DNA of 64,000 nucleotides from Mariniphaga anaerophila (GTDB lineage Bacteria; Bacteroidota; Bacteroidia; Bacteroidales; Prolixibacteraceae), in NCBI RefSeq assembly GCF_900129025.1, contig NZ_FQUM01000010.1:1-64000 (forward strand), given 5' to 3'. Position 1 is the first letter of the stretch; each line of letters begins with the position of its first letter. Shown one piece after another: positions 14,275 through 41,750 of this stretch. The translations under genes and the position numbers were made by a program. The notes below the pieces were generated by a model, which was given only the letters and a program-made list of their open reading frames with translations, made no database searches and was not told where the DNA came from.

Positions 14275-14340
14275 ATGTTTTGGAATTCGTTAGTGGAATT
14301 AGAAGGAGTAACTTTCACAACGGAAATGCAAAGTTAACCG

Positions 14341-15888: not shown

Positions 15889-15913
15889 TTGTTTCGTTTA
15901 AAAAAATGACACC

Positions 15914-16056: not shown

Positions 16057-16062
16057 ATATAG

Positions 16063-16929: not shown

Positions 16930-16945
16930 AAGCTTATTAAATAAC

Positions 16946-16964
16946 TTTCAGGGAATCCCTGAAA
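16946..16964. promoter_or_regulatory. 19-bp palindrome, probable operator upstream of the HTH gene
   Basis: TTTCAGGG-AAT-CCCTGAAA has perfect 8-nt arms around a 3-nt centre. It is followed at 16965-16972 by a further TATCCCTA half-site-like stretch. It lies 43 nt before the ATG of the helix-turn-helix protein, the usual place for an autoregulatory operator. It lacks a U-tract, so it is not a typical terminator for the upstream gene. Confidence 0.5.
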
Positions 16965-17007
16965 TATCCCTAATTTTTATTTGCACCATAACAATAAAAT
17001 AAAAGTT

Positions 17008-17292
17008 ATGAGTGACAAAATTATTCAATTAATCGAGATTACACCGGAACAGCTTCAAGAAGCAATTCTTAACGGTGTAAAAGTTCAAATCGAAGAACTT
17101 AAAAAGAGTTTCCAACCTGTTCAGCCAACAGAGTATTTGACCCGTGAAGAAGTATCTAAACTTCTTAAAATCAACTTAAGCACAGTTCATGGTTGGACAA
17201 AGAAAGGAAAGTTGAATGCGTTTTACTGCGGAAACCGCGTGTATTATAAAAGAAGCGAAGTTGAGGCAGCCATTAAACCACTAAACCAATAA
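17008..17292 (+). CDS. Helix-turn-helix DNA-binding protein (excisionase/MerR-like, HTH_17 type)
   Basis: I choose the ATG at 17008 (MSDKIIQLIEITPEQL); an upstream TTG-initiated reading would add nine unlikely residues. The 94-residue protein has an N-terminal helix and a C-terminal HTH_17 domain (YLTREEVSKLLKINLSTVHG, then WTKKGKLNAFYCGNRVYYKR). This domain is shared by phage excisionases and small element-borne activators. On Bacteroidetes integrative elements such a gene commonly governs excision or replication genes, and here it heads a tight run of three genes (gaps of 3 nt and -8 nt). A palindrome just upstream may be its binding site. Confidence 0.85.
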   Translation: MSDKIIQLIEITPEQLQEAILNGVKVQIEELKKSFQPVQPTEYLTREEVSKLLKINLSTVHGWTKKGKLNAFYCGNRVYYKRSEVEAAIKPLNQ

Positions 17293-17295
17293 GCC

Positions 17296-17568
17296 ATGAA
17301 AGAATTAAAATTAGAATTCATGGGAGAAGGTGAAGTAAAAGGATTTAAATTCAATCAATTACTTCGTTCTGGTAGGGCTTATATGTATCAAGTAAATGAT
17401 GAGGGTAAAATTCATTATGAAGTTTTTAAAAAGCGGATAAACACACGACATAGAGAGCCCAACGTGTCATATCCAACAAGTAAAGGTTTTGGAATCTGGG
17501 CAAAAACAACAAGAGATTTTAACACTGCATTAGATTATTTAATTCAATACAGTAAGAAAAATGGATAA
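17296..17568 (+). CDS. Small hypothetical island protein (90 residues)
   Basis: The ATG lies 3 nt after the HTH gene, and the stop overlaps the next gene's start by 8 nt, so it is translationally linked to both. The sequence is basic with short beta-strand-like stretches (AYMYQVNDEGKIHYEVFKKR) and a C-terminal helix (FNTALDYLIQYSKKNG). No family is recognised. Its position between an excisionase-like protein and a RepA-like ATPase suggests a helper in element replication or excision. Confidence 0.7.
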   Translation: MKELKLEFMGEGEVKGFKFNQLLRSGRAYMYQVNDEGKIHYEVFKKRINTRHREPNVSYPTSKGFGIWAKTTRDFNTALDYLIQYSKKNG

Positions 17569-18457
17569 AGTTATTTCTGCTACCGATTTATTAAATATGG
17601 AATACACTGAAATTCCTTATTTGCTGGAATCAGTATTTCCAAAACAGGGATTGGCTGCTGTTGGCGGAAGTTCTGACACGGGAAAATCACATTTACTAAG
17701 ACAGGTTGCAATGAGTATTGTTTCCGGTGAAAAAGAATTTCTTGGATTAAAATTAAATTCTGAACACAACAGGGTTTTGTATGTATCTACTGAGGATTTT
17801 GAAATAGCAACAAGTGTTTCACTAAAAAAACAACAAGCTGAACTTGGATTAACAAATGAAACCTTTAAAAATCTATCATTCATATTTGACACAACCGACT
17901 TAATCGCCAATATTGAAAGCCAACTTCAACAGAATCCACACGATCTTGTGGTAATTGATACTTTTTCAGATTTGTTCGGTAACGATATAAATCAGGTTAA
18001 TCAGGTAAGAAACTACTTGCACCAATACGGGCAATTAGCCAATAAATATAAGTGTTTGTTTCTTTTTATACACCATTCAGGAAAAGGAACAGAATATAAA
18101 ACACCAAGTAAAAACAGCCTATTGGGTAGCCAGGGATTTGAAGGTAAAATGAGAGCAGTAGTTTTATTGTTAAAATCCAAATCAGATGTTAACCTCAGGT
18201 ATTTTTGTTCTGTAAAAGGAAACTACATAGAAGAAAAAATGAAAACAGAAGCCATAGAGCTTGTATTTAATGACAACCTTTGTTTTCAGGCAACAGGAAA
18301 TACAAACTTATTGGAAGAAATAAAGAAACCTGAAAAGGAGAATACAAAAAGTGAAGTGCTTAAACTTCAACAGAGTGGCTTTAGCCAAGGTGAAATAGCA
18401 GATCGGTTAGGCATATCTCAGCCATCTGTTAGCAGAATCCTTTCCGGGAAAAGTTAG
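17561..18457 (+). CDS. RepA-like AAA ATPase with C-terminal helix-turn-helix
   Basis: This 298-residue protein has a RecA/RepA-type ATPase core. Walker A is GGSSDTGKS (residues 35-43), sensor and Walker B regions follow (NRVLYVSTEDF; DLVVIDTFSDLF), then FLFIHHSGKG and a serine-rich loop (KNSLLGSQGFEGKMR) as in AAA_25/RepA helicases. The last 40 residues form a separate HTH (SGFSQGEIADRLGISQPSVS), like those of resolvases. RepA-type hexamers act as replicative helicases for small plasmids and integrative elements, so this gene may give the element an autonomous or excised replication phase. A perfect 21-bp-arm hairpin begins 11 nt after its stop. Confidence 0.85.
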   Translation: MDKVISATDLLNMEYTEIPYLLESVFPKQGLAAVGGSSDTGKSHLLRQVAMSIVSGEKEFLGLKLNSEHNRVLYVSTEDFEIATSVSLKKQQAELGLTNETFKNLSFIFDTTDLIANIESQLQQNPHDLVVIDTFSDLFGNDINQVNQVRNYLHQYGQLANKYKCLFLFIHHSGKGTEYKTPSKNSLLGSQGFEGKMRAVVLLLKSKSDVNLRYFCSVKGNYIEEKMKTEAIELVFNDNLCFQATGNTNLLEEIKKPEKENTKSEVLKLQQSGFSQGEIADRLGISQPSVSRILSGKS

Positions 18458-18467
18458 ATTCAGAATA

Positions 18468-18515
18468 GTAAATTATTCATTCATTCATAAGAAAATGAAT
18501 GAATGAATAATTTAC
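18468..18515. repeat. Perfect inverted repeat, 21-nt arms with 6-nt loop, containing ATTC/GAAT tandem units
   Basis: Arms 18468-18488 and 18495-18515 are exact reverse complements around AAGAAA. Inside each arm ATTC (GAAT on the other arm) is repeated in tandem. It begins 11 nt after the RepA-like gene. No T-tract follows on the plus strand, and the stem is mostly A/T, which is poor for termination. The repeated 4-mer and the neighbouring helicase/HTH gene fit a binding site or single-strand origin hairpin; this is inference. Confidence 0.6.
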
Positions 18516-18647
18516 ATGATATATTTTATTAAAATTTTTGCCTCTAAAATAGTTTTTAACCAACAACAAGTAGAATATCTAAATAAGACCTTTGCCGAAA
18601 GGAATAAGTTCCTTATTTTTAGGCTTATTCTTTTAAATCAAAAGTCA

Positions 18648-19034
18648 ATGAATCCGGATCAACAAAAAATTGCATTAAAAGTAATTTACTATCTTAAAAA
18701 ACGAGGTGGGATATCAAACTTAAACGATATTATAAAAAACGTTAAAGAACTAGAAAAAGATTACAACAAAATTCCAATAATGGAAGGACTTAAGGATTAC
18801 GAATTAATTGCAAATACAAACTCAAGCTCAACGTCTTACAGGCTAAGTGCAAAAGGACATGAATTTGAAACTTGGGACAAGTTTTTTTTTGAAAAATCAC
18901 TTGAGATTAAATTAGCTAAATCAAACATTGAAGCTAATGAACTTCAAAAGCGATATAGCAACTTTAACAAAACATTTTTGATTCTAAACGCTGTATTTGC
19001 TGCTATAAATATCTTGATAGCAATACTATTGTAG
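18648..19034 (+). CDS. Small membrane-anchored hypothetical protein with N-terminal winged-helix-like region
   Basis: The frame is open from 18516, directly after the hairpin, but its first 44 codons encode low-complexity Phe/Ile/Lys-rich sequence. I therefore prefer the ATG at 18648 (MNPDQQKIALKVIYYL). The 128-residue product has a winged-helix-like start (YYLKKRGGISNLNDIIKNVK, then LKDYELIANTNSSSTSYRLS), a charged helix likely to coil (KSLEIKLAKSNIEANELQKR), and a C-terminal transmembrane helix (FLILNAVFAAINILIAILL). A tail-anchored helical protein of this plan could be a small sensor or effector carried as cargo. No named family is recognised. Confidence 0.65.
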   Translation: MNPDQQKIALKVIYYLKKRGGISNLNDIIKNVKELEKDYNKIPIMEGLKDYELIANTNSSSTSYRLSAKGHEFETWDKFFFEKSLEIKLAKSNIEANELQKRYSNFNKTFLILNAVFAAINILIAILL

Positions 19035-19146
19035 TTGAAAGCTGTAAAATGAAAATAAGGATATTCCAGATTAATATTTTAAATTCATTACCGTTAAAAA
19101 ATCTTTTATTTAACCAATTAAACATTTATTTTTAATTTTATTTGTT

Positions 19147-19389
19147 ATGAAATTTATTAGAGTACAAGCTAGGAGAATTACCGAAAACAGTCAAACAAAG
19201 GATTTACCTAAAGAGACAGAATTTTTCATAAACTCAAACATAATTAAAACAATAGATCCTATTGACTACAAAATCACACTAATGGAAGACGAATACAATG
19301 TACATAACGATTTGGTCAAAATTGGAATTGCAGACTACGAAATTTCGTTGGTAAATCATCTCGACTTAGACTCTTTGATATTGAAATAG
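19147..19389 (+). CDS. Small hypothetical cargo protein (80 residues)
   Basis: This 80-residue ORF has its own ATG and an AT-rich leader. The product is soluble and mixed alpha/beta (MKFIRVQARRITENSQTKDL, then EFFINSNIIKTIDPIDYKIT), ending in an acidic LDLDSLILK tail. No homologous family is recognised and no signal peptide or membrane segment is seen. It stands alone, 112 nt after the previous gene, and is followed by 480 nt without a convincing gene. Confidence 0.55.
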   Translation: MKFIRVQARRITENSQTKDLPKETEFFINSNIIKTIDPIDYKITLMEDEYNVHNDLVKIGIADYEISLVNHLDLDSLILK

Positions 19390-19872
19390 CCTTTTGTATT
19401 TTAATGCCAAGAAACTTAGTTGTCGTTTCAGCGTAATATTCATCACGAGCTGCGGTTACATGATAAATTTTTGTGAATGATTTTAAAAGCATTTTAAAAT
19501 TCTTTTTTGAACAGTCTTTTAATGGCACTGTCACGTTAAAAGCAGTTTTAAACTTTAAAATGGCACTGCTTTTTAGCCACGGTTATATAAAAATACAAAA
19601 AGGTAGATTAGGGAGTTTAAAAGCACTATTTGAGGTGACAATAAAACCAACTTTTTGAATAAAAAATTCCCCAATTTTGTAAAACCCTGAATTGAACTAA
19701 TTTGATTGAAAATGATGTTTCAAAATACAGTTATCAAAAATTAGCATTTAAGATTTAAGATAGAAATATAAATCTATACTTTGATTTGCATTTTGCATTG
19801 AAAATAAGTTGGATAAAAAATCTTTATTCCTAACTTTATGGCCTAATAAACAATATTCTAAAAACAAATCAC
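19390..19872. other. AT-rich gene-poor stretch of the island
   Basis: No convincing gene. A 61-codon plus-strand frame (19473-19658) has low-complexity Phe/Lys-rich content and no ribosome-binding context. The 10-mer AATGGCACTG occurs twice (about 19520 and 19558). Between them AAAAGCAGT pairs with ACTGCTTTT across about 18 nt, giving a weak hairpin. The last 70 nt before 19873 probably hold the promoter of the FISUMP gene. Confidence 0.5.
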
Positions 19873-20937
19873 GTGAGGTTAACTTTTTTTATTTTAGTTG
19901 TTTTTATTCCAAGTTTTGTTATTTCTCAAACAACGGGAACTTTCATAGACAACCGAGATAGCACTGAATATAAATGGGTAAAAATTGGCGATCAAATATG
20001 GATGGCCGAAAATCTTGCATATTTGCCTGGAATTGGTGGAATACCTGTTTATATAAATCAATCTTTTGCTTATATGAAAACCTATTTTGTTTATAATTAT
20101 CAAGGAACTAGCGTTGAAGAAGCGAAATCAACTGACTATTTTACGAAATATGGTGCATTATATGATTGGTTCGCCGCCATTGATGGCTACCAAGCAAGTA
20201 ATAGCGATCCAAGTGGAATACAAGGAGCTTGTCCTGATGGCTGGCATATTCCAAGTAGAGCAGAATGGCAAAAGTTAACTGATTTTATTTGCAACGATAT
20301 AGGAATTTGCGAAATACGCACTGGCTTTAGCAATAAATATTATACTGAAATCGGAAGATATTTAAAATCAGAAACAGGTTGGGAAATTAACAATGGATTG
20401 AATTCTTATGGTTTTAATGCATTACCGTCGGGTTGGTCTGCAAATTCAACAAAATCTGAAGGAAATTTGGGATTATATTGGACGGCAAGCGAATACAATA
20501 GAGATTATGCTACTGCGTATTGGCTAGATTCCAATGACCAACATTTAAGAGTTGGTAACCCATATTTATTGGTACGTAATAGCAATTCCGATGTCATTGG
20601 TAAGTGGGGGGGGTTTAGTATTAGATGTGTTTGTGATGACAATTCTTTATTAACAAACAATAATCAGTCAAAATCTATAAAAGATAATCTAAAAATAAAT
20701 ATTTATCCAAATCCCAGTAATGATGGGAGGATTTTTATTGAAATTAGTAATTTTGAAGGAACGGGAAATTTTACTGTTTTTAATTTACATGGAATTGAAA
20801 TTAATTCATGGGAGTTTTATGCGGAAAATGGTTCGTTCAAAAAAGAAATAAATCTGGCTAACTTTGCTAAAGGCATTTATTATTTTAGATTTTCTCTTGG
20901 TGAAAAATCACTAAATAAAACCATTATACTTTATTGA
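19873..20937 (+). CDS. FISUMP-domain protein with T9SS sorting domain (island cargo)
   Basis: Translation starts at GTG 19873; no in-frame ATG lies upstream before a stop, and the signal peptide (FFILVVFIPSFVISQT) begins immediately. The 354-residue protein contains a Fibrobacter succinogenes major paralogous (FISUMP) domain: VKIGDQIWMAENLAYLPG, YGALYDWFAAI, CPDGWHIPSRAEWQKL, LPSGW, YWTASEYN and FSIRCVCD. It ends in a type A T9SS sorting domain (LKINIYPNPSNDGRIFIEIS, KGIYYFRFS). It is expected to be exported through the Sec and type IX systems to the surface. FISUMP has a C-type-lectin-like appearance but no agreed function. On the island it is the clearest host-interacting or environment-facing cargo. 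Confidence 0.9.
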   Translation: MRLTFFILVVFIPSFVISQTTGTFIDNRDSTEYKWVKIGDQIWMAENLAYLPGIGGIPVYINQSFAYMKTYFVYNYQGTSVEEAKSTDYFTKYGALYDWFAAIDGYQASNSDPSGIQGACPDGWHIPSRAEWQKLTDFICNDIGICEIRTGFSNKYYTEIGRYLKSETGWEINNGLNSYGFNALPSGWSANSTKSEGNLGLYWTASEYNRDYATAYWLDSNDQHLRVGNPYLLVRNSNSDVIGKWGGFSIRCVCDDNSLLTNNNQSKSIKDNLKINIYPNPSNDGRIFIEISNFEGTGNFTVFNLHGIEINSWEFYAENGSFKKEINLANFAKGIYYFRFSLGEKSLNKTIILY

Positions 20938-21164
20938 AAAAGTCTGACAGAGCAATTTTTATTTTCAGGTGGACTAATGATTCTTTACGGGGGAGATCGT
21001 TCCTCTGACGTAAGCTAAGACACCTCATAGAGGGATATTTATTGTTAAGTTGAGTTAGGCGCCAAAATATGTTTTATAGCACATTTCTGATAATTCTATT
21101 TAGAAATATATTTACTCAAAAAAATCTTGTAAGTTTGTCTAATATCATTTCATCCTTTTTAAAC

Positions 21165-21854
21165 ATGAATATCAATAAGCGAAATCTACACGTATTGATT
21201 ACATTAATGTTTTTAATCGTAATTGGATACTTATTAAAAAAAACTACAAATATTGAAACACAAGAAAAGAATGAAGAAATTAAATTTGCACCTTCTTTAA
21301 AGGAGGGAAAAAAAGATTTTGTTGAATATCTTGATTCTACTACCCTTATTTATTCTAATTTCAAATATAATATCGCAATTGATTTTCCTGATCATTGGTT
21401 AATTGACAAAGGTGTATCAGAACATACAATTATTAGAGGAAGTTATGCAGATAGTGGAATATCACTTGCGATTAATGTTATAGAGCTCGAAGGATTTGAA
21501 ATGGGCGATAAATCTATTTGGGATTTATATGAGCAAAATGAGCAAATCTGGGAAAACGAAAAACAGAAATTGCTTCAAGAAGCAACAAACGAAGAATTGT
21601 ATAGCTTTAGTTCACGCAAGGTACATTTAAGCAATGTTGAAGCTATTGAATATAGGTTTAGCCGTATATTTCGCCAAGTAGATTTAGAATTTGAAATGCA
21701 ACACGTTGTATATGAATTTTTTTATCACAATTGTACATACTCAGTTGGTCTTCAGGTTCCTTGGTTTCTTTTTGATGAGAATCCACAGAGGTATAACTCA
21801 TTGTTTTATGGGGTGTCGTTATTGAAAAGAAGCACAAGCATTGAGCCTCATTAA
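21165..21854 (+). CDS. Membrane-anchored hypothetical protein, PsbP/DUF1795-like appearance
   Basis: The frame is open from 21069, but I choose the ATG at 21165 because it begins a clear signal-anchor (RNLHVLITLMFLIVIGYLL). A candidate -7 box, TAAGTTTG, lies at 21130-21137. The 229-residue product has an extracytoplasmic domain with YSNFKYNIAIDFPDHWLIDK, a single-chain beta pattern (GISLAINVIELEGFEMGD), and the pairing YRFSRIFRQVDLEFEMQHVV. This looks like the PsbP/DUF1795 fold, in which a DFPxxW motif starts the domain. This is a fold-level impression only, and its role is unknown. It is the last intact gene before the tRNA. Confidence 0.6.
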   Translation: MNINKRNLHVLITLMFLIVIGYLLKKTTNIETQEKNEEIKFAPSLKEGKKDFVEYLDSTTLIYSNFKYNIAIDFPDHWLIDKGVSEHTIIRGSYADSGISLAINVIELEGFEMGDKSIWDLYEQNEQIWENEKQKLLQEATNEELYSFSSRKVHLSNVEAIEYRFSRIFRQVDLEFEMQHVVYEFFYHNCTYSVGLQVPWFLFDENPQRYNSLFYGVSLLKRSTSIEPH

Positions 21855-22394
21855 ATTTTACTAATAGGTAAAAATTTATATTTCGCTTCGTGTTAGAGGA
21901 TCAGGCAGACAAGTAGCAATATCATAAAACTTTAGTCCAAGCCAACGCACAACGTCTTTGTTTCGTTTTCTTTTAGATACATTACAAAGTCTATTAAATT
22001 AATTAAATTTAATCCGTGAAAGTCTGATAGGGCCACAGTCAAATAAAAATATTGGGTATGGGGCGATAAAATAACAAGAGAAAAAACAGTTAGGTAAGTT
22101 GTCTTTATACCTATATCTTAAACCCACCAAAACAAAACCAAAAACCGATCTGCGAAAGCCGGTGGCCACTTATTATTTCATTCAACTAATACGATTCAGA
22201 AAAAGTGATTATCTTCTTTCATTGCCTCCCATATAAAGCAATTAGGGACTTTCTCCCTGCAAGTGGATACTTGTATTCAGAAAAACGTTTTAACCCGTTT
22301 ATAGTGATTATGGTTTGTTGTAAAAGAGATAGGTAAATATTGTGTGAATTGATGTTGTATAGTAATATATTTATATTTTATTTATATTTTACTT
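21855..22394. other. Gene-poor right end of the island
   Basis: About 540 nt contain no complete gene on either strand. The left part holds a coding-like minus-strand remnant (21876-21998). The rest is AT-rich with many stops. ATGTTGTATA at 22352-22361 also occurs at 14485-14494 near the left end, so the pair might be integrase arm sites; the match is short. Confidence 0.5.
21876..21998 (-). pseudogene. Coding-like fragment, C-terminal end of an unknown protein
   Basis: The minus strand gives 40 codons free of stops, ending TAA at 21876-21878. The peptide composition is natural (RKRNKDVVRWLGLKFYDIAT, then CLPDPLTRSEI), but there is no ATG and a stop lies directly upstream. It looks like a remnant of a gene truncated at its 5' side. 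The family is not recognised, and chance cannot be excluded. Confidence 0.3.
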
Positions 22395-22436
22395 AAATAA
22401 AAAATGCAACAAGCTATAATTCAGTTTGTTGCATCT
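22395..22436 (-). terminator. Island-borne rho-independent terminator for the tRNA-Leu gene
   Basis: ATGCAACAA (22404-22412) pairs with TTGTTGCAT (22426-22434). On the minus strand the stem is followed by TTTTTTATTT. It starts about 9 nt after the tRNA 3' end. The tRNA's likely original terminator was moved 8 kb away by the insertion, so this hairpin replaces it. Confidence 0.8.
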
Positions 22437-22440
22437 TGTA

Positions 22441-22458
22441 TTTGTGCCCAGAACAAGA
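22441..22458 (+). repeat. Right attachment-site repeat (attR), overlapping the tRNA-Leu 3' end
   Basis: TTTGTGCCCAGAACAAGA is identical to 14371-14388. Bases 22445-22458 are the discriminator, 3' acceptor strand and part of the T-arm of the intact tRNA, so integration kept the tRNA functional. Confidence 0.9.
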
Positions 22459-22530
22459 ATCGAACTTGCACGGCCTAAATCGGCCACAAGGCCCTCAACC
22501 TTGCGTGTCTACCAATTCCACCATCTGGGC
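22445..22530 (-). tRNA. tRNA-Leu (anticodon GAG)
   Basis: The minus strand folds as a class II tRNA of 86 nt without encoded CCA. The acceptor GCCCAGA pairs with TCTGGGC, the D-arm contains GGTAGACACGC, the anticodon stem is CAAGG/CCTTG with loop TTGAGGG (anticodon GAG), and there is a long variable arm (TGGCCGATTTAGGCCG). The T-loop is TTCGATT and the discriminator is A, as expected for leucine. It reads CUC/CUU codons. Its 3' end is the integration target of the island on its left. Confidence 0.95.
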
Positions 22531-32980: not shown

Positions 32981-32988
32981 TATCTTTG
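32981..32988 (+). promoter_or_regulatory. Candidate sigma-A promoter of argS (-7 box TATCTTTG)
   Basis: TATCTTTG matches TAnnTTTG, with TTG at 32960-32962 upstream at near-standard spacing. It is 21 nt from the argS ATG at 33010. Confidence 0.6.
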
Positions 32989-33009
32989 TGGCTCAAAAAA
33001 AATGCTTGT

Positions 33010-34806
33010 ATGAAAATTGATGAGTTAATACAATCTGTTGTTCTGGAAGCTTTAAAAAAGCTTTATGATTTTGAGGCTTCAAAAGAGTCTGTTCAGTTAC
33101 AAAATACCCGTAAAGATTTTGACGGTGACATTACGCTTGTTGTTTTTCCGTTTTTAAGGTATTCAAAAAAGAAACCGGAAGATACCGCCAAAGAAATCGG
33201 GGAATACCTACAGGAAAATGTTGACGAGATAAAATCCTACAATGTTGTAAAAGGATTTCTTAACCTGGAAATTGACAATAATTATTGGCTTGGGAGAATT
33301 CAGAAAGCCTGGGGTGACGAAATTTTTGGGCATCAGAAGCCTTCAGAAAAACAGAAGACAGCAATGGTTGAGTACTCATCGCCAAATACAAATAAACCGC
33401 TGCATTTGGGGCATATTCGTAATAACCTGTTAGGATACTCCCTGTCCGAAATTTTAAAAGCAAATAACTACCACGTTGTTAAAACAAATATTGTAAACGA
33501 TAGGGGAATTCATATTTGTAAATCGATGCTCGCCTGGCAGAAATGGGGAAATCAACAAACACCTGAAAACTCGGGTATGAAAGGAGATCACCTGGTGGGT
33601 GATTTATACGTGGCATTCGATAAGCATTACAAAGCAGAAATTGCAGAGCTTTTGAATAACGGAATGTCACAAAAGGAGGCAGAAGATCAGGCTCCTTCAA
33701 TCCAGGAAGCCCGGGATATGTTGCGCAAATGGGAGGCAGGCGATTCAGAGGTTGTTCAGCTTTGGAAAACTATGAATAGCTGGGTTTACGAAGGATTTGA
33801 CACAACTTACAAACGACTGGGAGTAGATTTTGATAAAATTTATTACGAGTCTGAAACCTATCTTGTAGGAAAAGATGAAGTTTTGAGGGGACTGGAAGAA
33901 GGAATTTTCTACAAAAAAGAAGACGGATCGGTTTGGGCAGATTTGACCGACGAAGGCCTCGACCAGAAATTGCTTCTTAGAAGCGATGGAACCTCTGTGT
34001 ATATGACTCAGGATATCGGTACTGCAAAAATGCGATTCAAGGATTTTGATATTGATAAGATGATTTACGTTGTAGGTAACGAACAAAATTATCATTTCCA
34101 GGTGCTGGCAATATTGCTGGATAAATTGGGTTACGACTGGGGAAAAGGGCTTCATCATTTTTCATATGGTATGGTAGAACTGCCTTCCGGTAAAATGAAG
34201 TCAAGAGAAGGGACTGTAGTAGACGCAGACGACCTGATGGATGGGATGGTCGATGTTGCCCGGAAAATGGCTGAGGAGTTGGGAAAACTCGATTCATTAA
34301 CGCAGGAAGAGGCAGAAAAAACGTATGAGATGATTGCGTTGGGCGCTTTAAAATATTTCATATTGAAGGTTGACCCCAAAAAGAATATGATGTTTAACCC
34401 CGAAGAGTCTATCGATTTTAATGGAAACACAGGCCCGTTCATTCAATATACACATGCGCGCATCAAGTCGGTATTGAGAAAGGCCGCAGAAAAAGGCCTG
34501 GATATAAAAGAAAACTTTGCCGTTTCGCCAACAACTATTTCAAATAAGGAAAAAGATTTAATGAAACGTATTACCCAGTTTCCTGAAGCTGTAAAGGAAG
34601 CAGGCATCAATTATAGTCCGGCTGTTGTTGCAAATTATTGCTATGAATTGGCAAAAGAGTTTAACCAGTTTTATCACGATCATCCAATTCTTACAGAGCA
34701 AGATAGCGTTGTTCGGGATATGCGGTTGTTGCTGTCTGCAACGGTTGGAAAAGTAATAAAAAGCGGAATGAAATTACTTGGAATAGAAGTTCCGGATAGA
34801 ATGTAA
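33010..34806 (+). CDS. argS: Arginyl-tRNA synthetase
   Basis: I use the ATG at 33010 (MKIDELIQSVVLEAL); an in-frame TTG 24 nt upstream overlaps the promoter and is not credible. The 598-residue class I synthetase charges tRNA-Arg. The N-terminal additional domain (residues 1-110) precedes the HIGH-type motif SPNTNKPLHLGHIRNN. The KMSKS counterpart is SGKMKSREGTVVDADDL, as usual for Bacteroidetes ArgRS. The C-terminal DALR anticodon-binding domain contains NGNTGPFIQYTHARIKSVL and ends MKLLGIEVPDRM. It is a single gene with its own promoter and terminator. Confidence 0.97.
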   Translation: MKIDELIQSVVLEALKKLYDFEASKESVQLQNTRKDFDGDITLVVFPFLRYSKKKPEDTAKEIGEYLQENVDEIKSYNVVKGFLNLEIDNNYWLGRIQKAWGDEIFGHQKPSEKQKTAMVEYSSPNTNKPLHLGHIRNNLLGYSLSEILKANNYHVVKTNIVNDRGIHICKSMLAWQKWGNQQTPENSGMKGDHLVGDLYVAFDKHYKAEIAELLNNGMSQKEAEDQAPSIQEARDMLRKWEAGDSEVVQLWKTMNSWVYEGFDTTYKRLGVDFDKIYYESETYLVGKDEVLRGLEEGIFYKKEDGSVWADLTDEGLDQKLLLRSDGTSVYMTQDIGTAKMRFKDFDIDKMIYVVGNEQNYHFQVLAILLDKLGYDWGKGLHHFSYGMVELPSGKMKSREGTVVDADDLMDGMVDVARKMAEELGKLDSLTQEEAEKTYEMIALGALKYFILKVDPKKNMMFNPEESIDFNGNTGPFIQYTHARIKSVLRKAAEKGLDIKENFAVSPTTISNKEKDLMKRITQFPEAVKEAGINYSPAVVANYCYELAKEFNQFYHDHPILTEQDSVVRDMRLLLSATVGKVIKSGMKLLGIEVPDRM

Positions 34807-34832
34807 AAAAGGGGGGAAAGCCCCCTTTTTTT
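34805..34832 (+). terminator. Rho-independent terminator after argS
   Basis: AAAAAAGGGGG pairs with CCCCCTTTTTTT around GAAAG, immediately after the argS stop. Confidence 0.9.
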
Positions 34833-35127
34833 GATTTAATGATTGAAGGAAAAGCACCTTCCTATTTATATGTTCTGATTTTTGACAAAAGGTTACCCCT
34901 AAATTCCCGGAAAAATAAAAGAAATACAAATATTCACTCTAGCCCCTCGCATTGTTCTTATTTATCAGTAGCAAAAAAGCATTGATAAAAAAAGCAAAAA
35001 GTGAATAAAATTGTCATAAGTTTATAAAATACGATTATTTTTACGTGCCAGTGCAAGTATTTGTTCTAGAGTATTTTTTGATTTCAAAAATGGCCTTGCA
35101 CAAAAAAAAAATCACTTTTTCAGAAAA
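34833..35127. other. Intergenic region upstream of the CHAT-linked sigma operon
   Basis: No gene is visible. It is AT-rich with several A-tracts. At 34887-34899 the minus strand reads GGGGTAACCTTTT, close to the conserved motif GGGTTACCTTTT found at 35131-35142, but in the opposite direction and not facing a gene start. This could be a second binding site or chance. Confidence 0.4.
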
Positions 35128-35142
35128 TGAGGGTTACCTTTT
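35128..35142 (+). promoter_or_regulatory. Shared 15-nt motif upstream of the ECF sigma gene (putative autoregulated promoter element)
   Basis: TGAGGGTTACCTTTT lies 31 nt before the sigma ATG. The identical 15-mer occurs at 40321-40335, upstream of the double-glycine peptide gene of the same locus. The position (about -35 to -50 from the start codon) and the sharing suggest recognition by the locus-encoded ECF sigma or a dedicated regulator. Confidence 0.6.
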
Positions 35143-35173
35143 TTAAATTTAGCGAATAATATAATAGACGGAC

Positions 35174-35761
35174 ATGAAAAACTACAGTGATGAACAAATC
35201 CTGAAAGGGATATTAAGACACGATAATTTAATATTGCAGTACATCTACAAACAGTTTTACTACCAGGTAAATTTATTCATTAAAAAGAATAGTGGGAACG
35301 AAGATGATGCAAACGACATTTTTCAGGAGGCGATAATAGTCATCTACCGTAAGTTGAAAGAAAACGATTTAGTTTTTCAAACGAGTTCTTTTCAGGGGTA
35401 TCTTTTTTCGGTTTGCCGGTTTTTGTGGCTGAAACAGCTTGAAAAACGGAGAATTGAGCAGGAAAAGATAAATGATACACTGCCATTCCAGGAAGACATT
35501 TACGATGATAGCCTGGTGGAGTTGGTTGAAAAAAATGAAAAGTATGGTTTATACCAGAAACATTTTAAAACCCTGAGTACAGATTGTCAGAAGCTTTTGC
35601 AACTATTTTTCGAGAAGGTCCCGCTGTCCGAAATTGCACGGATTATGGGCTACAAAGGCGAAAAATATGCAAAAAAGAGAAAGTTTAAGTGTAAAGAACT
35701 TCTGATTAGCCGAATAAAGCAGGATACAGAATTTAAAAAAATACTTGAAGATGATACCTAA
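35174..35761 (+). CDS. ECF-like sigma factor of the CHAT module
   Basis: This 195-residue protein has sigma region 2 (about residues 20-95: QYIYKQFYYQVNLFIKKNSG, NEDDANDIFQEAIIVIYRKL, FQGYLFSVCRFLWLKQLEKR) and region 4 (about 135-185: LSTDCQKLLQLFFEKVPLSE, IARIMGYKGEKYAKKRKFKC). It would direct RNA polymerase to a small regulon. It overlaps by 11 nt with the downstream repeat/TPR membrane protein, a textbook sigma/anti-sigma arrangement. The shared motif upstream suggests autoregulation. It differs from the stand-alone ECF gene at 27.5 kb. Confidence 0.9.
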   Translation: MKNYSDEQILKGILRHDNLILQYIYKQFYYQVNLFIKKNSGNEDDANDIFQEAIIVIYRKLKENDLVFQTSSFQGYLFSVCRFLWLKQLEKRRIEQEKINDTLPFQEDIYDDSLVELVEKNEKYGLYQKHFKTLSTDCQKLLQLFFEKVPLSEIARIMGYKGEKYAKKRKFKCKELLISRIKQDTEFKKILEDDT

Positions 35762-37241
35762 AACAAAACACTTTGACTGGATTGAGGATTATTTAATGGA
35801 CGCCCTCAGCCAGCACGAAAGAAGTGAGTTTGAAACGGAGCTGGCAAGTAATAGCTTGCTGAGCGAAGAAGTAAAACTCGAAGAGGAAATTCAGTTGGCA
35901 ATAACTGAAAAAGAAGTTCTTAACCTTCGGGAAAAGTTAGAAACAGTTTCAAAACAAACAAAAGAAGGAAACACCCCTTTCAATCTTTTGGATGGTTTTG
36001 AAAATATTCAGGAGCTTTCCGAAAAATTACCCCCGGAAGAATTACTGAAGTTTTACGATTCGTTACCCAAAGCGCACATTTACCAGCACGAGCTGGCTTC
36101 AAATGAAAATATTCACGAGTTTTTCAGGGAACAGAATATTCCCGGGTTGGAAAACGACTTGGCTTTCGAAGATTCAGAAGACGATGATTTTGAATTGGAA
36201 GGGTTGGAAGAAGCAATTCTTGAAAGCGATGTGCTGAACCTGAGAGAAACTCTTGGAAAAGTTTCTACATCTGTTCGTGTACAATGTTCGTCAGACGAAG
36301 TCGACCGGTATCTTAACGGCGAATTGTCAGCGCAGGAATTAGAGCGGTTTGAACAGGAACTTGCTGTGAACAGCATTCTGCAAAAAGAAGTTGCGTTGCA
36401 CAGAGAAATGGAAGGTGCTCTGATGGAGCTGGATATAATGAATTTGAGAGATGAAATTTCACACCTGATGGGTGCTGAAACCTCTTGGAATGTTTCTGAA
36501 AAGCAGATTGAAGACTTCATTTCGGGCTCGCTGGTAGGAGAGGAGCTGGAGCTGTTTCGCTCAGAATTAAACGAGAATTCAGATTTGAAAGCAGAGGTTG
36601 CTTTACGACGAAATGTTGACATGGCCGTTAGCGAGACGGAAATCTTTGCTTTACGAAACGAGTTGGAGAAAGCTAGGAATGACGCAAGAAGTAAAGAAAT
36701 AAAATCTTTGATACCTGACACAAAAGTTCAACATATGAACTGGTGGAGAGCCGGTGTTGCCGTGGCAGTTGTTTTATTTGCCATAGCCGGCATTTTTAAT
36801 AACGAATTTGGAAACCTTAACCGAACCTATGATAACTATTACCAGCAGCCTGAATGGGCTCCTCAGAGGTCTGTTAGTGCTGATATTGGTGTGCTACAAC
36901 AAGCCAACGGTTATTTCGTAGATGGAGAATACGAAAAAGCGCTTCTGCTTTATGATAAGGCGATAAAAGAAAATGAAGACAAGTTCGTTTTTCAATTCTA
37001 TAAAGCAGCCAGTCTGCAAAGCCTCGATCGATTTGAAGAAGCCATCCCTGAATATTCAAAGGTTATAGAGCATGGTGATAATATGTTTGTAGACGAAGCG
37101 GAATGGTATAAGGCTTTGTGCTACATAAAACTTGAAAGAAAGGATGCTGCCCATGAACAACTCCTGGCAATCATAAGCAAGAACGGTTATTATGCAAAAG
37201 ATGCGAAAGCTGTTTTAAGAAAAACCAGATTCCTTTTTTGA
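35751..37241 (+). CDS. Transmembrane protein with repeated anti-sigma-like units and periplasmic TPRs (putative anti-sigma factor)
   Basis: I use the ATG at 35751, overlapping the sigma stop by 11 nt; an in-frame TTG two codons earlier is less likely. The 496-residue protein has a cytoplasmic part of four related units. The clearest start at about residues 10 (WIEDYLMDALSQHERSEFET), 182 (DEVDRYLNGELSAQELERFE) and 250 (EKQIEDFISGSLVGEELELF); each ends in an LR-x-x-L motif (VLNLREKL, IMNLRDEI, IFALRNEL). A partial unit lies between about 84 and 175. One membrane helix follows (about 333-351, GVAVAVVLFAIAGIF), then three TPR-like helix pairs outside (about 381-490). The 'YLxGxLsxxExxxFE' pattern is that of anti-sigma N-termini, but without zinc ligands. 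Its role as the inhibitor of the adjacent sigma is inference. Confidence 0.72.
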   Translation: MIPKTKHFDWIEDYLMDALSQHERSEFETELASNSLLSEEVKLEEEIQLAITEKEVLNLREKLETVSKQTKEGNTPFNLLDGFENIQELSEKLPPEELLKFYDSLPKAHIYQHELASNENIHEFFREQNIPGLENDLAFEDSEDDDFELEGLEEAILESDVLNLRETLGKVSTSVRVQCSSDEVDRYLNGELSAQELERFEQELAVNSILQKEVALHREMEGALMELDIMNLRDEISHLMGAETSWNVSEKQIEDFISGSLVGEELELFRSELNENSDLKAEVALRRNVDMAVSETEIFALRNELEKARNDARSKEIKSLIPDTKVQHMNWWRAGVAVAVVLFAIAGIFNNEFGNLNRTYDNYYQQPEWAPQRSVSADIGVLQQANGYFVDGEYEKALLLYDKAIKENEDKFVFQFYKAASLQSLDRFEEAIPEYSKVIEHGDNMFVDEAEWYKALCYIKLERKDAAHEQLLAIISKNGYYAKDAKAVLRKTRFLF

Positions 37242-37407
37242 AAATTTGATTCATTAAACTTGATTTTTACACATTCCAATACGTTCTTTAAAAGTCTGAA
37301 AAAACTATCGAAATAAAAGCGTTAAGCTTGAAAACCACACATTTTTATTTACGCTTTTGTTTTCTGTTCATCCACGAAAATTTAGCTCGTTATTGAAACT
37401 ACACATT

Positions 37408-40266
37408 CTATTCTATTCGATTTTTTCGAGCCTTTTTTAACCGGATGAACTGGTCGATAGCAATGCCCGCAAGGGCAAGGACTAAAAGTCCAAAGAAATA
37501 GTAATCATAGCTTCTAAAGAGAGGTTTTGCATTGCCGATGCTTACGTAACCAAGCCAATAGTGAGGATGCGCCATGCGCGGATTGGCATTTTCCAAATAA
37601 CTTAGCTTTGCCAATCGAAGCGCCTCGTCGGTAGGTCTTCCTTTTTTTAGGTTTTGGTAAAAAGAACTCATTATTTTAGTTCCGGCATTGTCTTCAACTT
37701 CCCAAAGCGTCATTACTATCGTGGGACATCCGGCATATAGAAACCCCCGGGCAAGGCTCATAACACCTTCCCCTTTTTTTAAGTTTCCTGCTCCGGTATT
37801 ACATGCACTTAATACGGTTAAACGTGCATTGAGGTCAAGATTATATACATCTGCAGTATTTAGCCAACCATCGTTATAAGGCTGATTGCTATTGTTTTGA
37901 GAAAATGCCAGTCGCGAAAAAGCCGGCAGTGAATCATTAATAAATGCGTGCATTGCCAGATGTAAGATGTCATAGTCTTCGCTTTGTTCCCTAAAGTTTT
38001 TTTCTGTAGCATCTTCGCTTCTGAATAACTGCATCCTTATTTCATCAGATATAAGATCGACCTCACGTTGTACTCCGGGTAACGGATTTAAAATCAGTTT
38101 GTCGTTTTCGAAAGTAACTGTATCTGAGTTGTATATGGGAGCAAATGCAAGAAGCTTGTTTTTTGCTTTCCGTTTTGTTCGGTTGAACTTAAATAGTAGA
38201 TTGGCAGAGTAGGCATAATTTACCGCGTTTTCCTTAATAAGATATGGAAGGGTATTAAAATGTATCGTTTGGGACGTGTCGGGCATTTCAGTTAAAAATG
38301 CATCAAAAGGCAGGTAATTTAGTTTTCCATCCGGTATAATCGTAATTTTTTTGTTCTGAATGTCATCGGCAAAAGGATACAGTAGTTTTATGTATAATTT
38401 ATGAGCTGCAACACAAAAATCTTTAGAATTCTCATTCTTTGTAAACAGATATGCCGGATTTGACATAAATCGGAATGTTTCTTCAATGGACTTTATAAAT
38501 GATGAGTCGATATCTATTTTGTGAAAAGACAAATTCCCTTCTGAAAAAAGGAAGGCATATAACTCTGGAATAGAGTCTGTTTCGTTAAAAGCGTATTCGA
38601 TTAAAACCTCGTTATCATTTAAGCTTTGGTGAACTGTATTTGAAGAAATGTATTCGTCAGCATATTTAAGTTCGTAATAATCACTGTAGTTTTTTTCTAA
38701 ATAGTTATTGAGTTCGTCGCGTTGTTTTTTTAACTGAAACAACATTGAGTCAGCCGATGCAATCTCCAAATGGTTGGGTTTTTCTGCTCTCTTTAAGTCA
38801 AATAGCTTCTCGTTTTGATTTGTAATGCTGTAGTTTAGAGTGCGTTCAAGTTCTGTTAGACTGTCTGGAACCAAGCTGTTTTCTCTTGCTAGCTGATCTG
38901 ACAGTTTGTCGAAAACAGAGCTTGCCTTTAGTCTTTCCGCATTAACAAAAGCGAATTCGATAATTTTAGGATTTGTTTCTATTTCAGTGGCTTTGTATGC
39001 TGTCTGTACAATTTTATTGAAAGTGGCACCCTCCAATTCTGCTAACTGTATTTTACTCTCATCAGAGTATAGCTCCTTTCGGGCCTGCTGAATTAGTCCT
39101 GCCGTAATTTCGTAATATTCAAGCGCTTTTTCTATGGACTCTTTCCGTTTTGGATGAGTTGTGTCTGTGTATATATCTGAGATTTTAGTGTACGTATCGG
39201 CAATTAGTTTTAAAAGTTCAAGGCTTTGGGTTAACGAGTAACTATTGCCGGCAGAGAAAGAGGTGCTGGAAAGGCTGTCTGTGTCAACCCCAAGCGCTTT
39301 TATCCCTTTTTTATAGTATGTGATTGCTTCTGTAAGATTAGCTGTTTTCCTGCTTCTGAAATTGTTGATGTCGTTTGTCTCGACTATTGTATTGTCAAAA
39401 AGAAAGCCTTGGGTTTTATAATAGAAAGAAACTGCGATGCCATCGTTTATATTGTTGTCTTTTAGTGCATTACTTGCTTTTGACAAAATGCTCTTTGCTT
39501 CCTCCGTTTTGTGATACGTGATTAAAAATGTGGCAAAGTTTAGATAATCGAAAATGACATTGACTTCAGATTTGGAATAGAATTCTTCCGATAATTTGAT
39601 TGTATTTGAATAGCTCATATAGGCATTATCGAATTGTTCAATATTTTGATATATTACGGATTGTAGACTTGCGTATAATATTCTTGTGTCGGGATATGCA
39701 TTTGAGTAATTTTCTTCAATAATTTCAAGAGCACTTTCATAGTTTTTCAATCGGTTCTGAATATCGGCAATATTGTAATTTACATCAGCAATACTCCCTC
39801 GGTTTCCATCAGTACTGTATTTTTGAAAGATACGTCTGGACATTCTATAATAGTCAAGAGCTGTAATTAAGTTTAATTTTCCTTTATAAACGTTGCCAAT
39901 ATTATTATACAAACGGGCAATAGGAAGTTCATTGGACGTTGCTTCAGAAGAGTATGCTCTCTCTGCTAAGAGAAAATGTTCAATAGATTTATCCCAAGCT
40001 CCTAGATCCTTGTATATTATGCCGAGTGCATTCTGGACTACTCCATACTCATAGCTAGATTTGGAATATATTCTCTCTCTTATTTTTGCGGATACATTGA
40101 AGGAATCAATAGCCGCCTGTAGATTAGAATTTCTAAAAAAAGTAATTCCTGAATGATAAGAATCTGATGCCCGGATCGAATCCGAAGAGTAGGTCGTGCT
40201 ATGTCCTGATATACTGAAGAATAGCAATGAGAAAATTAGTAGCTGTATAGACTTGTTTCTTAACAT
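37408..40266 (-). CDS. Secreted, membrane-anchored TPR-CHAT protease
   Basis: This 952-residue protein has a signal peptide (SIQLLIFSLLFFSISGHS), about ten TPR-type helix pairs (residues about 30-430: AYSSEATSNELPIARLYNNI, ALDYYRMSRRIFQKY), a coiled region (about 450-550), and a CHAT (caspase-HetF-associated) domain (about 600-905). The catalytic dyad is intact: His773 in HLAMHAF and Cys822 in VLSACNTGAG, followed by GEGVMSLARGFLYAGCPTIV and LWEVEDN. A single helix (about 924-943, YFFGLLVLALAGIAIDQF) and a basic tail (LKKARKNR) anchor it, with CHAT on the periplasmic side. CHAT peptidases cleave partner proteins when their TPRs sense a signal. The gene converges on the sigma/anti-sigma-like pair and diverges from the GG peptide gene. 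The target is not known. Confidence 0.9.
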   Translation of the reverse strand: MLRNKSIQLLIFSLLFFSISGHSTTYSSDSIRASDSYHSGITFFRNSNLQAAIDSFNVSAKIRERIYSKSSYEYGVVQNALGIIYKDLGAWDKSIEHFLLAERAYSSEATSNELPIARLYNNIGNVYKGKLNLITALDYYRMSRRIFQKYSTDGNRGSIADVNYNIADIQNRLKNYESALEIIEENYSNAYPDTRILYASLQSVIYQNIEQFDNAYMSYSNTIKLSEEFYSKSEVNVIFDYLNFATFLITYHKTEEAKSILSKASNALKDNNINDGIAVSFYYKTQGFLFDNTIVETNDINNFRSRKTANLTEAITYYKKGIKALGVDTDSLSSTSFSAGNSYSLTQSLELLKLIADTYTKISDIYTDTTHPKRKESIEKALEYYEITAGLIQQARKELYSDESKIQLAELEGATFNKIVQTAYKATEIETNPKIIEFAFVNAERLKASSVFDKLSDQLARENSLVPDSLTELERTLNYSITNQNEKLFDLKRAEKPNHLEIASADSMLFQLKKQRDELNNYLEKNYSDYYELKYADEYISSNTVHQSLNDNEVLIEYAFNETDSIPELYAFLFSEGNLSFHKIDIDSSFIKSIEETFRFMSNPAYLFTKNENSKDFCVAAHKLYIKLLYPFADDIQNKKITIIPDGKLNYLPFDAFLTEMPDTSQTIHFNTLPYLIKENAVNYAYSANLLFKFNRTKRKAKNKLLAFAPIYNSDTVTFENDKLILNPLPGVQREVDLISDEIRMQLFRSEDATEKNFREQSEDYDILHLAMHAFINDSLPAFSRLAFSQNNSNQPYNDGWLNTADVYNLDLNARLTVLSACNTGAGNLKKGEGVMSLARGFLYAGCPTIVMTLWEVEDNAGTKIMSSFYQNLKKGRPTDEALRLAKLSYLENANPRMAHPHYWLGYVSIGNAKPLFRSYDYYFFGLLVLALAGIAIDQFIRLKKARKNRIE

Positions 40267-40320
40267 TTTATCCTATTTACTGAAGGTTAAAAATAACTTT
40301 TTTTCAATTTTCTTCCAATT

Positions 40321-40335
40321 TGAGGGTTACCTTTT
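40321..40335 (+). promoter_or_regulatory. Shared 15-nt motif upstream of the GG-peptide gene
   Basis: TGAGGGTTACCTTTT is identical to 35128-35142. It lies 65 nt upstream of the peptide ATG and 54 nt upstream of (divergent from) the CHAT gene start. It probably places the peptide in the regulon of the locus sigma factor. Confidence 0.6.
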
Positions 40336-40400
40336 CTTTGTTTTCGGAATATATATATAGAATGTGTGTTTTCAAGTTTAACGAATTAAATTTATTTACG

Positions 40401-40547
40401 ATGAAAAGGTTTTTTAACAACACCGAAAAAAGAAATGTAAAAGGTTTTGAAGTATTAACCTCTAATGAAATGTTAAAAGTACGTGGCGGTGGTAATCCGA
40501 GACCTATTACAAGAGATAAAGATATTTTCGAAGGCGAATCTCGCTAG
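40401..40547 (+). CDS. 48-residue double-glycine precursor-like peptide
   Basis: I use the ATG at 40401 (MKRFFNNTEKRNVKGFEVLT), preceded by an AT-rich leader; the longer upstream reading is not credible because it spans the shared promoter motif. The leader part ends SNEMLKVRGG, the double-glycine pattern of Bacteroidetes natural-product/bacteriocin-type precursors (LxxxEMxxVxGG). The remaining core would be 18 residues, GNPRPITRDKDIFEGESR, strongly charged and without Cys. It may be processed after GG and exported, or be a substrate or ligand of the adjacent CHAT protease. No C39 peptidase/ABC exporter or modification enzyme is nearby. Real expression is unproven, but leader similarity and the shared promoter motif support it. 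Confidence 0.72.
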   Translation: MKRFFNNTEKRNVKGFEVLTSNEMLKVRGGGNPRPITRDKDIFEGESR

Positions 40548-40607: not shown

Positions 40608-41750
40608 TTATGATTGTGCCCATTTCCCCTGGAACAGTTGGTATTTTGAATAAGAACATTCCAAGGAGCCATTGAATAATGCAAGCTTTTTACTTGGCTT
40701 TAGTCCAACGTTTTTGAGGTATTCTCTCGACGAAGTTAAAATCCAGGCAGTATTTCCGGCAAACTGATGTTTTAGTCTTTCCCCAATCATAGCGTAAAGT
40801 GCATCCATATTTTCTTCAATAATTCTTTCTCCGTATGGAGGATTTATTATTATTGTAGCATTGTTGCTGGTTAATTGTAGATCTTTCATGTCGCTGGTCT
40901 GAAAATCAATTGCTGAAAAAACTCTTGCTCTGCGGGCATTTGTTTGTGTTGTTAAAACACATTCTTTTGAAATGTCAGATGCATATATTTTTTTAGTGAA
41001 GGGTTTTGTTTGTTGCTCGGCTTTGACACTTTCAAATAATTCCTGATCATATCCGGGCCAGTTTTCAAAAGCAAATTCTTTGCGAAATCTTCCCGGAGCA
41101 ACGTTTTGCGCTATCATAGCGGCTTCAATAGGCAACGTTCCTGAACCACACATAGGATCAATGAAATCCGTTTTGCCGTCCCATCCAGATAATAAAATCA
41201 TTCCTGCTGCAAGTACTTCGCTTAATGGAGCCTTCCCCTGAATTGAACGATATCCTCTTTTATGCAACGACTCACCTGAACTATCCAGCGATAAAATGCA
41301 TGTATTTCGGTTTATATGCGCGTGAATAAAGATTTCAGGAGTGTGGGTGTCAACGTTGGGTCTGCTTCCTGTTTTCAGCCGAAAATGATCGGCAATCGCA
41401 TCTTTTACTTTTAATGATGCAAACATCGAATTCCGAAATTCTTTGGAATGCGAAACTGTACTGTTTATAACGAAGCTTTGGTTAACAGAAAAATATTTTA
41501 ACCAGCTCACTTCTTTACATCTCAAATAGAACTGGTCGATGTCATTGAACTGAAATACTGCAATTTCTTTCAGTACTCGTATGGCAGTTCTTAAACAATA
41601 ATTTGATTTGTAAATAGTTTTCAAATCGCCTTCAAAAGAAACGGCTCTTCGGCCTTCTTTTATGTTTTCTCCTCCAATGGATTCGATTTCTTTTGCCAGT
41701 ACAGATTCTAATCCGGAAAAGGTTTTTGCAGTAAGTCTAAAATTTTTCAA
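40608..41750 (-). CDS. THUMP-domain class I RNA methyltransferase (RlmL/YcbY N-terminal-like)
   Basis: This 380-residue protein starts with a ferredoxin-like/THUMP RNA-binding part (residues about 1-155: LTAKTFSGLESVLAKEIESI, CKEVSWLKYFSVNQSFVINS). It then has a SAM-dependent methyltransferase domain with motif I FIDPMCGSGTLPIEAAM, motif IV IIINPPYGERI and the linking segment KAPLSEVLAAGMILLSGWDG. The NPPY motif marks N-methylation of bases. In E. coli RlmL makes m2G2445 in 23S rRNA, and this single-domain form is the common Bacteroidetes version. It is 15 nt downstream of the serine acetyltransferase on the same strand. Confidence 0.9.
   Translation of the reverse strand: MKNFRLTAKTFSGLESVLAKEIESIGGENIKEGRRAVSFEGDLKTIYKSNYCLRTAIRVLKEIAVFQFNDIDQFYLRCKEVSWLKYFSVNQSFVINSTVSHSKEFRNSMFASLKVKDAIADHFRLKTGSRPNVDTHTPEIFIHAHINRNTCILSLDSSGESLHKRGYRSIQGKAPLSEVLAAGMILLSGWDGKTDFIDPMCGSGTLPIEAAMIAQNVAPGRFRKEFAFENWPGYDQELFESVKAEQQTKPFTKKIYASDISKECVLTTQTNARRARVFSAIDFQTSDMKDLQLTSNNATIIINPPYGERIIEENMDALYAMIGERLKHQFAGNTAWILTSSREYLKNVGLKPSKKLALFNGSLECSYSKYQLFQGKWAQS

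Follow-up and report, generated by a model that had tools for sequence, protein, structure and literature searches.

A putative protease-gated sigma factor switch with a TPR-CHAT protein in Mariniphaga anaerophila and its relatives

A cluster of genes in Mariniphaga anaerophila appears to encode a membrane switch in which proteolysis by a CHAT-domain protein would free an extracytoplasmic function (ECF) sigma factor, with cleavage as the trigger; we put the probability of this reading at about 0.6. The genes lie within positions 1-64,000 of contig NZ_FQUM01000010.1 (assembly GCF_900129025.1, genome of 5.05 Mb), the stretch of 64,000 nucleotides (nt) that was analysed and is called the window here. 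Between argS (32986-34806) on one side and a gene for an RlmL-like methyltransferase (40608-41750) on the other stand, in order, the ECF sigma gene, an overlapping gene for a membrane protein with anti-sigma-like units, a convergent gene for a tetratricopeptide repeat (TPR) protein with a CHAT domain, and, divergent from the latter, a gene for a double-glycine peptide (Table 1). An initial annotation had described these genes and proposed that the CHAT protein gates the sigma factor, and all four are found where it placed them.

On the strength of conserved linkage, a shared promoter, an invariant catalytic dyad and an invariant arginine in a linker of the anti-sigma-like protein, the locus is best read as a protease-gated sigma switch. 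The proposed topology, with the protease and the sigma factor on opposite sides of the membrane, also favors it. Two parts of the original proposal are weaker: cleavage is a step that we infer, and the peptide falls outside the conserved core.

Conserved linkage of the genes

Linkage was followed in 140 genomes of the family to which M. anaerophila belongs, with expectation values (E) up to 1e-25 for the sigma factor and up to 1e-130 for the CHAT protein. The sigma factor is present in 108 of them (in genus g10 only at about 31% identity), the TPR-CHAT protein in 101, and both in 95. The two genes lie on one contig within 7.5 kb of each other in 81 of these 95 genomes and on different contigs in the remaining 14, several of which have them at contig ends. 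A search with the sigma protein gathered 59 loci. Where 5 kb downstream of the sigma gene is available (34 loci), the anti-sigma gene is found in 31 and the CHAT gene in 30, always in convergent orientation. Three gene orders were seen, all keeping the set together.

Beyond the family, 56 CHAT loci were collected as the best CHAT matches of scans of the order and the class, with about 1.5 kb of flank (one, L247, is own-family). The trio of sigma, anti-sigma and CHAT genes is present in 23 of the 56; the order scan contributed 17 (of 27 loci) and the class scan 6 (of 29 loci). Some TPR-CHAT genes are thus unlinked, yet the trio is old. The initial annotation had staked its reading on linkage across genomes, and linkage is kept. 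The set of four that it named is better described as a core of three, because the double-glycine peptide was seen with the trio in the window's family and not in the four loci examined from three other families. The recurrence of gene order, promoter box and peptide in different genera is more than chance would give.

A shared promoter and its regulon

The sigma operon and the peptide gene have a common promoter, as had been suggested. In the genome of M. anaerophila the exact sequence GGGTTACCTTTT occurs three times, and followed at the proper spacing by GRAT (GGGTTACCTTTT-N11-GRAT) it occurs at exactly two sites, upstream of the start of the sigma gene (by 43 nt) and of the peptide gene (by 77 nt); the third copy lacks the spaced GRAT. 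Boxes with one mismatch number 49 in this genome, of which 20 were inspected. Across the 59 loci, GRAT stands at spacer 11 in 74 of 75 exact boxes, the exception being GAAC at a short-RNA site (L023). The anti-sigma gene is directly behind the sigma gene in 34 of the 59 loci; 33 of these extend 60 nt upstream, and 31 of the 33 have an exact box before the sigma gene. The other two operons have TGGTAACCTTTT (L068) or a weaker form (L079). In the other 25 loci there is no exact box before the sigma gene; the box is found before the peptide gene with the anti-sigma gene behind, or between the sigma and anti-sigma genes.

The box is present in 90 of the 140 family genomes. Samples of the order and of the phylum gave 23 of 393 and 4 of 395 genomes with it, respectively, the last count including M. 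anaerophila itself. The reversed pattern, used as a control, was found in 8 of the 140 family genomes and 2 of the 393 order genomes. The three other genomes of the phylum sample have one match each, which we take as chance, and the motif was set aside outside the order. The promoter is sharp enough for regulons to be read from sequence. In relatives, other boxes precede a gene for a secreted protein of about 180 residues, followed by one of about 1700 residues. In many relatives a conserved cysteine-bearing protein of 73-80 residues without a Pfam match is encoded directly behind the box (L179, L186, L191, L199, L200, L201, L202, L215, L083, L089, L095, L096, L102, L103). Operons resembling contractile injection systems also follow the box (L213, L222, L223 and L224, in genomes G020, G023, G027 and G031), with a Pvc16-like gene in L213 (112 bits) and a tail-sheath-like gene in L224 (29 bits). 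In other families, boxes were seen before sigma genes and genes for secreted proteins and sensor-kinase-like proteins.

An HlyD protein paired with a C39-peptidase ATP-binding cassette exporter is the usual export machinery for double-glycine peptides. The box heads such a pair once, in genome G028 (L153, 3492-6859). Comparison of this exporter with genes behind boxes in 60 further stretches gave no match, and the single C39 exporter of M. anaerophila has no exact box at this spacing. The exporter was accordingly discarded as a general target of the sigma factor, being behind a box only in G028.

The TPR-CHAT protein

The 952-residue protein matches the Pfam CHAT family PF12770 at 201.3 bits (cut-off 24). 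The dyad His773/Cys822 noted initially is present, and both residues are kept in all 40 proteins that reach it, two others being truncated. The dyad is also invariant in an alignment of 39 rows that includes four sequences from other families. The protein is a predicted protease with an intact dyad. The signal peptide and the C-terminal anchor first assigned to it fared differently: the C-terminal segment, which is followed by basic residues, passes a simple hydropathy test, whereas the N-terminal segment of the window protein fails it. The N-terminal hydrophobic segment passes in 21 of 34 orthologues. The C-terminal anchor with its basic residues and the N-terminal hydrophobic segment suggest that the CHAT domain and the TPR domains of both this protein and the anti-sigma-like protein are periplasmic. 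Sequence and hydropathy thus agree with the topology proposed at the outset, in which CHAT faces the periplasm, opposite the sigma factor.

The structural model of the CHAT protein is good, with a predicted local distance difference test (pLDDT) value of 82.7 and a predicted template modelling score (pTM) of 0.76. Foldseek ranks entries of the complex of Csx29, the TPR-CHAT protease of type III-E CRISPR (clustered regularly interspaced short palindromic repeats) systems, first (E 9.9e-14, template modelling (TM) score to the query 0.29), followed by separase, with DdvA of Myxococcus xanthus at rank 12. The TPR matches of the CHAT profile include NprR and a Rap protein, in a list that is generic for TPR. 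TPR folds do bind signalling peptides.

The sigma factor and its membrane partner

The sigma protein scores above the curated cut-off of TIGR02937 (48.4 bits against 42.9) and below that of Pfam Sigma70_r2 (19.8 against 24). Its gene overlaps that of the 496-residue membrane protein by 11 nt, as first described. The latter is a single-pass protein, also as described, with one membrane helix by hydropathy; 38 of 39 homologues likewise have a single internal segment. Of the four anti-sigma-like units attributed to it, three are complete, with 21-23 of 59 residues identical between pairs, but one, the second in order (residues 151-171), is partial and has the third helix only. The family zf-HC2 reaches 14.5 bits on this protein (cut-off 22.2). 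A search of the genome for paralogues returned, besides the protein itself, weak partial matches only. Naming the units from predicted structure was tried and set aside, given low model confidence and a list in which the best 50 Foldseek matches were all to TPR proteins. We infer that the 496-residue protein binds the sigma factor via its cytoplasmic units.

In the loci of other families that were examined closely (L155-L157 and L164) the anti-sigma proteins are shorter, with 248 residues and one unit in three of them and 376 residues in L164. Multiple units per protein are a feature of the window's family. In four loci (L250, L252, L254, L256) there is a second anti-sigma-like gene beyond the CHAT gene, which is then flanked by two.

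An alignment of the C-terminal 200 residues covered 68 anti-sigma homologues, of which 39 are long and come from the window's family and its relatives, and 29 are shorter and come from other families. The sole invariant column is Arg373 (68 of 68), and the residue after it is Ser in 57 of 68. Arg373 is located in the linker between the membrane helix and the TPR domain, on the periplasmic side, where model confidence is low. Cutting after arginine is described for the clan CD enzymes separase, gingipain R, metacaspases and paracaspases (PMC4357240); an Arg-cutting protease of this clan could act in the linker. A conserved Asp is reported to hold the arginine in separase (PMC10317155). The WEVED motif of the CHAT protein contains Asp859, which does not vary in our alignments; our guess is that it is the counterpart of the separase residue.

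Proposed mechanism and alternatives

In the resting state, the cytoplasmic units of the single-pass protein would hold the sigma factor. The TPR domain of that protein would lie in the periplasm, as would the TPR-CHAT protein, anchored by its C-terminus. A signal would activate CHAT, the linker would be cut after Arg373 and the TPR domain shed. By analogy with the RseA pathway, the stump would be cleared by further proteases, leaving the sigma factor free; with several units in one protein, one cut could release more than one sigma. Once free, the sigma factor would direct transcription from the GGGTTACCTTTT-N11-GRAT promoters of its own operon and of the peptide gene, and probably of a short RNA as well. 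The system would reset itself because the anti-sigma gene is behind a sigma-dependent promoter.

Several observations weigh against this scheme. Kinship among the 68 sequences makes the invariance of Arg373 overstate the independent evidence, and the residue could serve binding instead. Csx29 is reported to cut its substrate Csx30 at residues 427-429 (PMC10028731), a site that may have no arginine. The Foldseek TM-scores to the CHAT query are low (0.23-0.33), so the match is one of architecture and not of close kinship, and a profile of the CHAT domain found no significant relative by sequence in the PDB, with DdvA at E 1.1. On the side of the partner, the NCBIfam family NF052375 ('anti-sigma factor') matches three stretches of the 496-residue protein (1e-8) at 35.4 bits, far from the curated cut-off of 100; the model of this protein is weak (pLDDT 68, pTM 0.33), and the best 50 of 1332 matches in its Foldseek search are all to TPR proteins. 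Linkage too has gaps: at the thresholds used, 13 genomes have the sigma factor without CHAT and 6 have CHAT without the sigma factor, and among the 34 sigma loci with sufficient downstream sequence, four (L054, L058, L064, L068) lack CHAT and three lack the anti-sigma gene.

The alternative that we take most seriously, while considering it unlikely, is that CHAT acts by binding. The two periplasmic TPR proteins would then form a sensor complex, with Arg373 as a contact residue and the dyad serving self-processing only. That both proteins carry TPRs fits this, and DdvA, in which one transmembrane chain unites an anti-sigma factor and a CHAT fold, indicates that CHAT can be a sensing module. However, the His and Cys are invariant, and Arg373 is in a low-confidence linker, not on the TPR surface. 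It is less probable still that CHAT processes products of the regulon, such as the double-glycine peptide or other surface proteins, and is linked to the sigma factor as a co-regulated effector. In 33 of 34 loci the peptide gene and CHAT diverge, and CHAT lies behind a box-driven gene for a secreted protein in three loci from two families. In the window's family, though, no such box precedes the CHAT gene; the trio persists where no double-glycine peptide was seen; and double-glycine leaders are usually cut by C39 exporters themselves.

We give little credence to linkage without a common pathway, the sigma/anti-sigma pair working alone with CHAT as a bystander, even with the 14 genomes in which sigma and CHAT genes are on different contigs and two loci (L068, L079) that have the pair and no CHAT on the stretch examined. 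Contig ends account for several of the split cases, and CHAT stays beside the anti-sigma gene in three gene orders and in six loci outside the order. Least probable of all is a defence or cell-death system like type III-E CRISPR, in which CHAT would be the effector. Foldseek does match the CHAT model best to Csx29 entries, but PADLOC gave no match, no repeat array is nearby, presence in a family is near-universal and vertical, and CHAT is predicted to be periplasmic.

A gene for a class I anti-sigma factor is reported near only 6% of Bacteroidetes ECF sigma factors (PMC7406223). The trio offers a candidate means of control for others, consisting of an anti-sigma family below curated detection, the protease that probably acts on it and a predicted site of cleavage. 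If the switch operates as proposed, it would link the CHAT proteases of CRISPR systems and separase to a role in envelope signalling.

Relation to known systems

DdvA is a nearer architectural precedent than the type III-E circuit. In the DdvS/DdvA system of M. xanthus (PDB 8rot, 8rw5) an ECF sigma is held by a transmembrane anti-sigma factor, and Foldseek aligns our CHAT model to DdvA (E 2.3e-11), the chain in 8rot being named 'CHAT domain-containing protein'. DdvA combines anti-sigma and CHAT in one chain, whereas here they are encoded by two genes and the anti-sigma protein has a TPR domain of its own. DdvS is described as active once DdvA is inactivated, by a trigger given there as unknown (PMC4374960).

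The type III-E system of Csx29, Csx30 and CASP-sigma likewise has a TPR-CHAT protease with a His/Cys dyad and provides the best Foldseek matches. In that circuit the sigma inhibitor is reported to be the substrate and the locus to be positively autoregulated (PMC10028731). Unlike Csx29, which is cytoplasmic and RNA-activated, the CHAT protein here is predicted to be periplasmic, and its partner is a membrane protein. Csx30 was not found for that partner among the best 60 of 116 sequence matches or the best 50 of 1332 Foldseek matches. The kinship with type III-E proposed initially is therefore limited to the CHAT protein and the logic of the circuit, and does not extend to the substrate. The statement that no CRISPR, Cas or gRAMP gene is near held for what was covered, with no Cas gene or array nearby: a search of 22-52 kb for CRISPR-like direct repeats found none, the remainder of the genome not having been searched; Rfam gave a single match over the whole window, a tRNA, and none to CRISPR; and PADLOC gave no match for the three locus proteins. 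CRISPR kinship of the locus was dropped on these results.

In the RseA/DegS and RsiW systems the anti-sigma factor is also a single-pass protein with a cytoplasmic N-terminus and a periplasmic part, encoded in an ECF sigma operon. The protein described here differs in having a TPR domain and, besides three full anti-sigma units, a partial one, and the site-1 proteases of those systems are not known to be CHAT proteins. ECF sigma factors of group ECF54 have CHAT genes in their context; CHAT, subtilase or carboxypeptidase genes are listed nearby, and proteolytic control has been proposed (PMC8999054). ECF sigma and TPR (DUF1822) genes are also reported beside EACC2-caspase systems, which are presented as conflict and apoptosis systems (PMC8195603); these neighbourhoods bring an ECF sigma, a TPR protein and a caspase-like domain together, but the families and domains are different. 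The trio is a new variant beside the one-piece DdvA, the RNA-triggered Csx29 circuit and the CHAT neighbours of ECF54, and no report of it was found in the literature, preprints and most subscription papers being outside the searched scope.

The double-glycine peptide

The 48-residue peptide divergent from CHAT was confirmed, with the motif VRGG and a tail of 18 residues after the double-glycine leader. Of 38 loci with a full CHAT gene, four are cut short by the end of the contig and 34 can be examined; the box, with up to one mismatch, stands in each of the 34, and 33 have a double-glycine open frame behind it, L078 being the miss. Scored against the leader pattern (positions -12, -8, -7 and -4 and the GG), the 33 peptides have L or I at -12 in 33, E at -8 in 29, M or L at -7 in 33, and V, I or L at -4 in 33. 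The window peptide has no match to TIGR01847 (bacteriocin_sig), and a related peptide of 42 residues reaches 14.2 bits (cut-off 15.7). Four Draconibacterium loci (L034, L035, L036, L048) have three tandem double-glycine genes whose leaders differ but whose cores are the same or almost so, L036 being the locus of Draconibacterium orientale, which carries the quartet, and in L061 the core occurs twice within one precursor, which points to the core as the working part. In three other families, four loci have boxes next to the trio, and no double-glycine peptide was seen behind these. The peptide is a member of the regulon in the window's family and not part of the core trio.

A feedback circuit in Bacteroidota may be imagined, which we regard as doubtful. 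The peptide would be exported by a C39 exporter and its short acidic core sensed by the periplasmic TPR domain of CHAT or of the anti-sigma protein, whereupon CHAT would free the sigma factor and more peptide would be made. That no such peptide was seen in the other families, and that the core varies little between species, argues against a signalling role. If true, the circuit would be a Gram-negative counterpart of peptide signalling via TPR receptors, in which a clan CD protease transduces the signal and the output is an envelope sigma.

Other features of the locus

A variant box at 34898 (minus strand) heads a short unit beside argS, consisting of a 5' hairpin, AAUCAUUAAAUC and a terminator. 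The unit was found in four genomes of the own genus among 100 genomes sampled. Variants of it are beside argS, away from the quartet, in three genomes of genus g6 (G036, G040, G055). This candidate short RNA is probably transcribed by the sigma factor.

Table 1. Features of the locus, in window coordinates
Feature	Position	Strand	Basis or remark
Candidate short RNA: 5' hairpin, AAUCAUUAAAUC, terminator hairpin, beside argS end	34812..34862	-	fold and comparison
Promoter-like box of candidate short RNA, variant GGGTAACCTTTT-N11-GAAC	34872..34898	-	
Sigma/anti-sigma operon promoter, GGGTTACCTTTT-N11-GAAT	35131..35157	+	
ECF sigma factor, 195 residues	35174..35761	+	TIGR02937
Membrane anti-sigma-like protein, 496 residues counted from ATG	35751..37241	+	11-nt overlap with sigma
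Anti-sigma-like unit 1, residues 8-66	35772..35948	+	
Partial unit 2, third helix only, residues 151-171	36201..36263	+	
Anti-sigma-like unit 3, residues 181-239	36291..36467	+	
Anti-sigma-like unit 4, residues 250-308	36498..36674	+	
Membrane helix of anti-sigma-like protein, residues about 330-354	36738..36812	+	hydropathy
Arg373, proposed P1 residue	36867..36869	+	invariant column; putative role
Predicted periplasmic TPR domain of anti-sigma-like protein, residues about 379-492	36885..37226	+	Pfam TPR 1e-5, model, Foldseek
TPR-CHAT protein, 952 residues, N-terminal hydrophobic segment and C-terminal membrane anchor	37408..40266	-	
CHAT domain, residues 621-912	37531..38406	-	Pfam PF12770, 201 bits
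Predicted catalytic His773	37948..37950	-	
Predicted catalytic Cys822	37801..37803	-	
Peptide gene promoter, GGGTTACCTTTT-N11-GAAT	40324..40350	+	
Double-glycine peptide, 48 residues, VRGG	40401..40547 (ATG to stop end)	+	

Elsewhere in the window, positions 14300-22530 have a low guanine plus cytosine content (0.29-0.33) and hold an integrase-like gene (14578-15888) and a replication-ATPase-like gene, both named by eye. This stretch, which ends near a tRNA at 22445-22530 (minus strand), is likely an integrated element.

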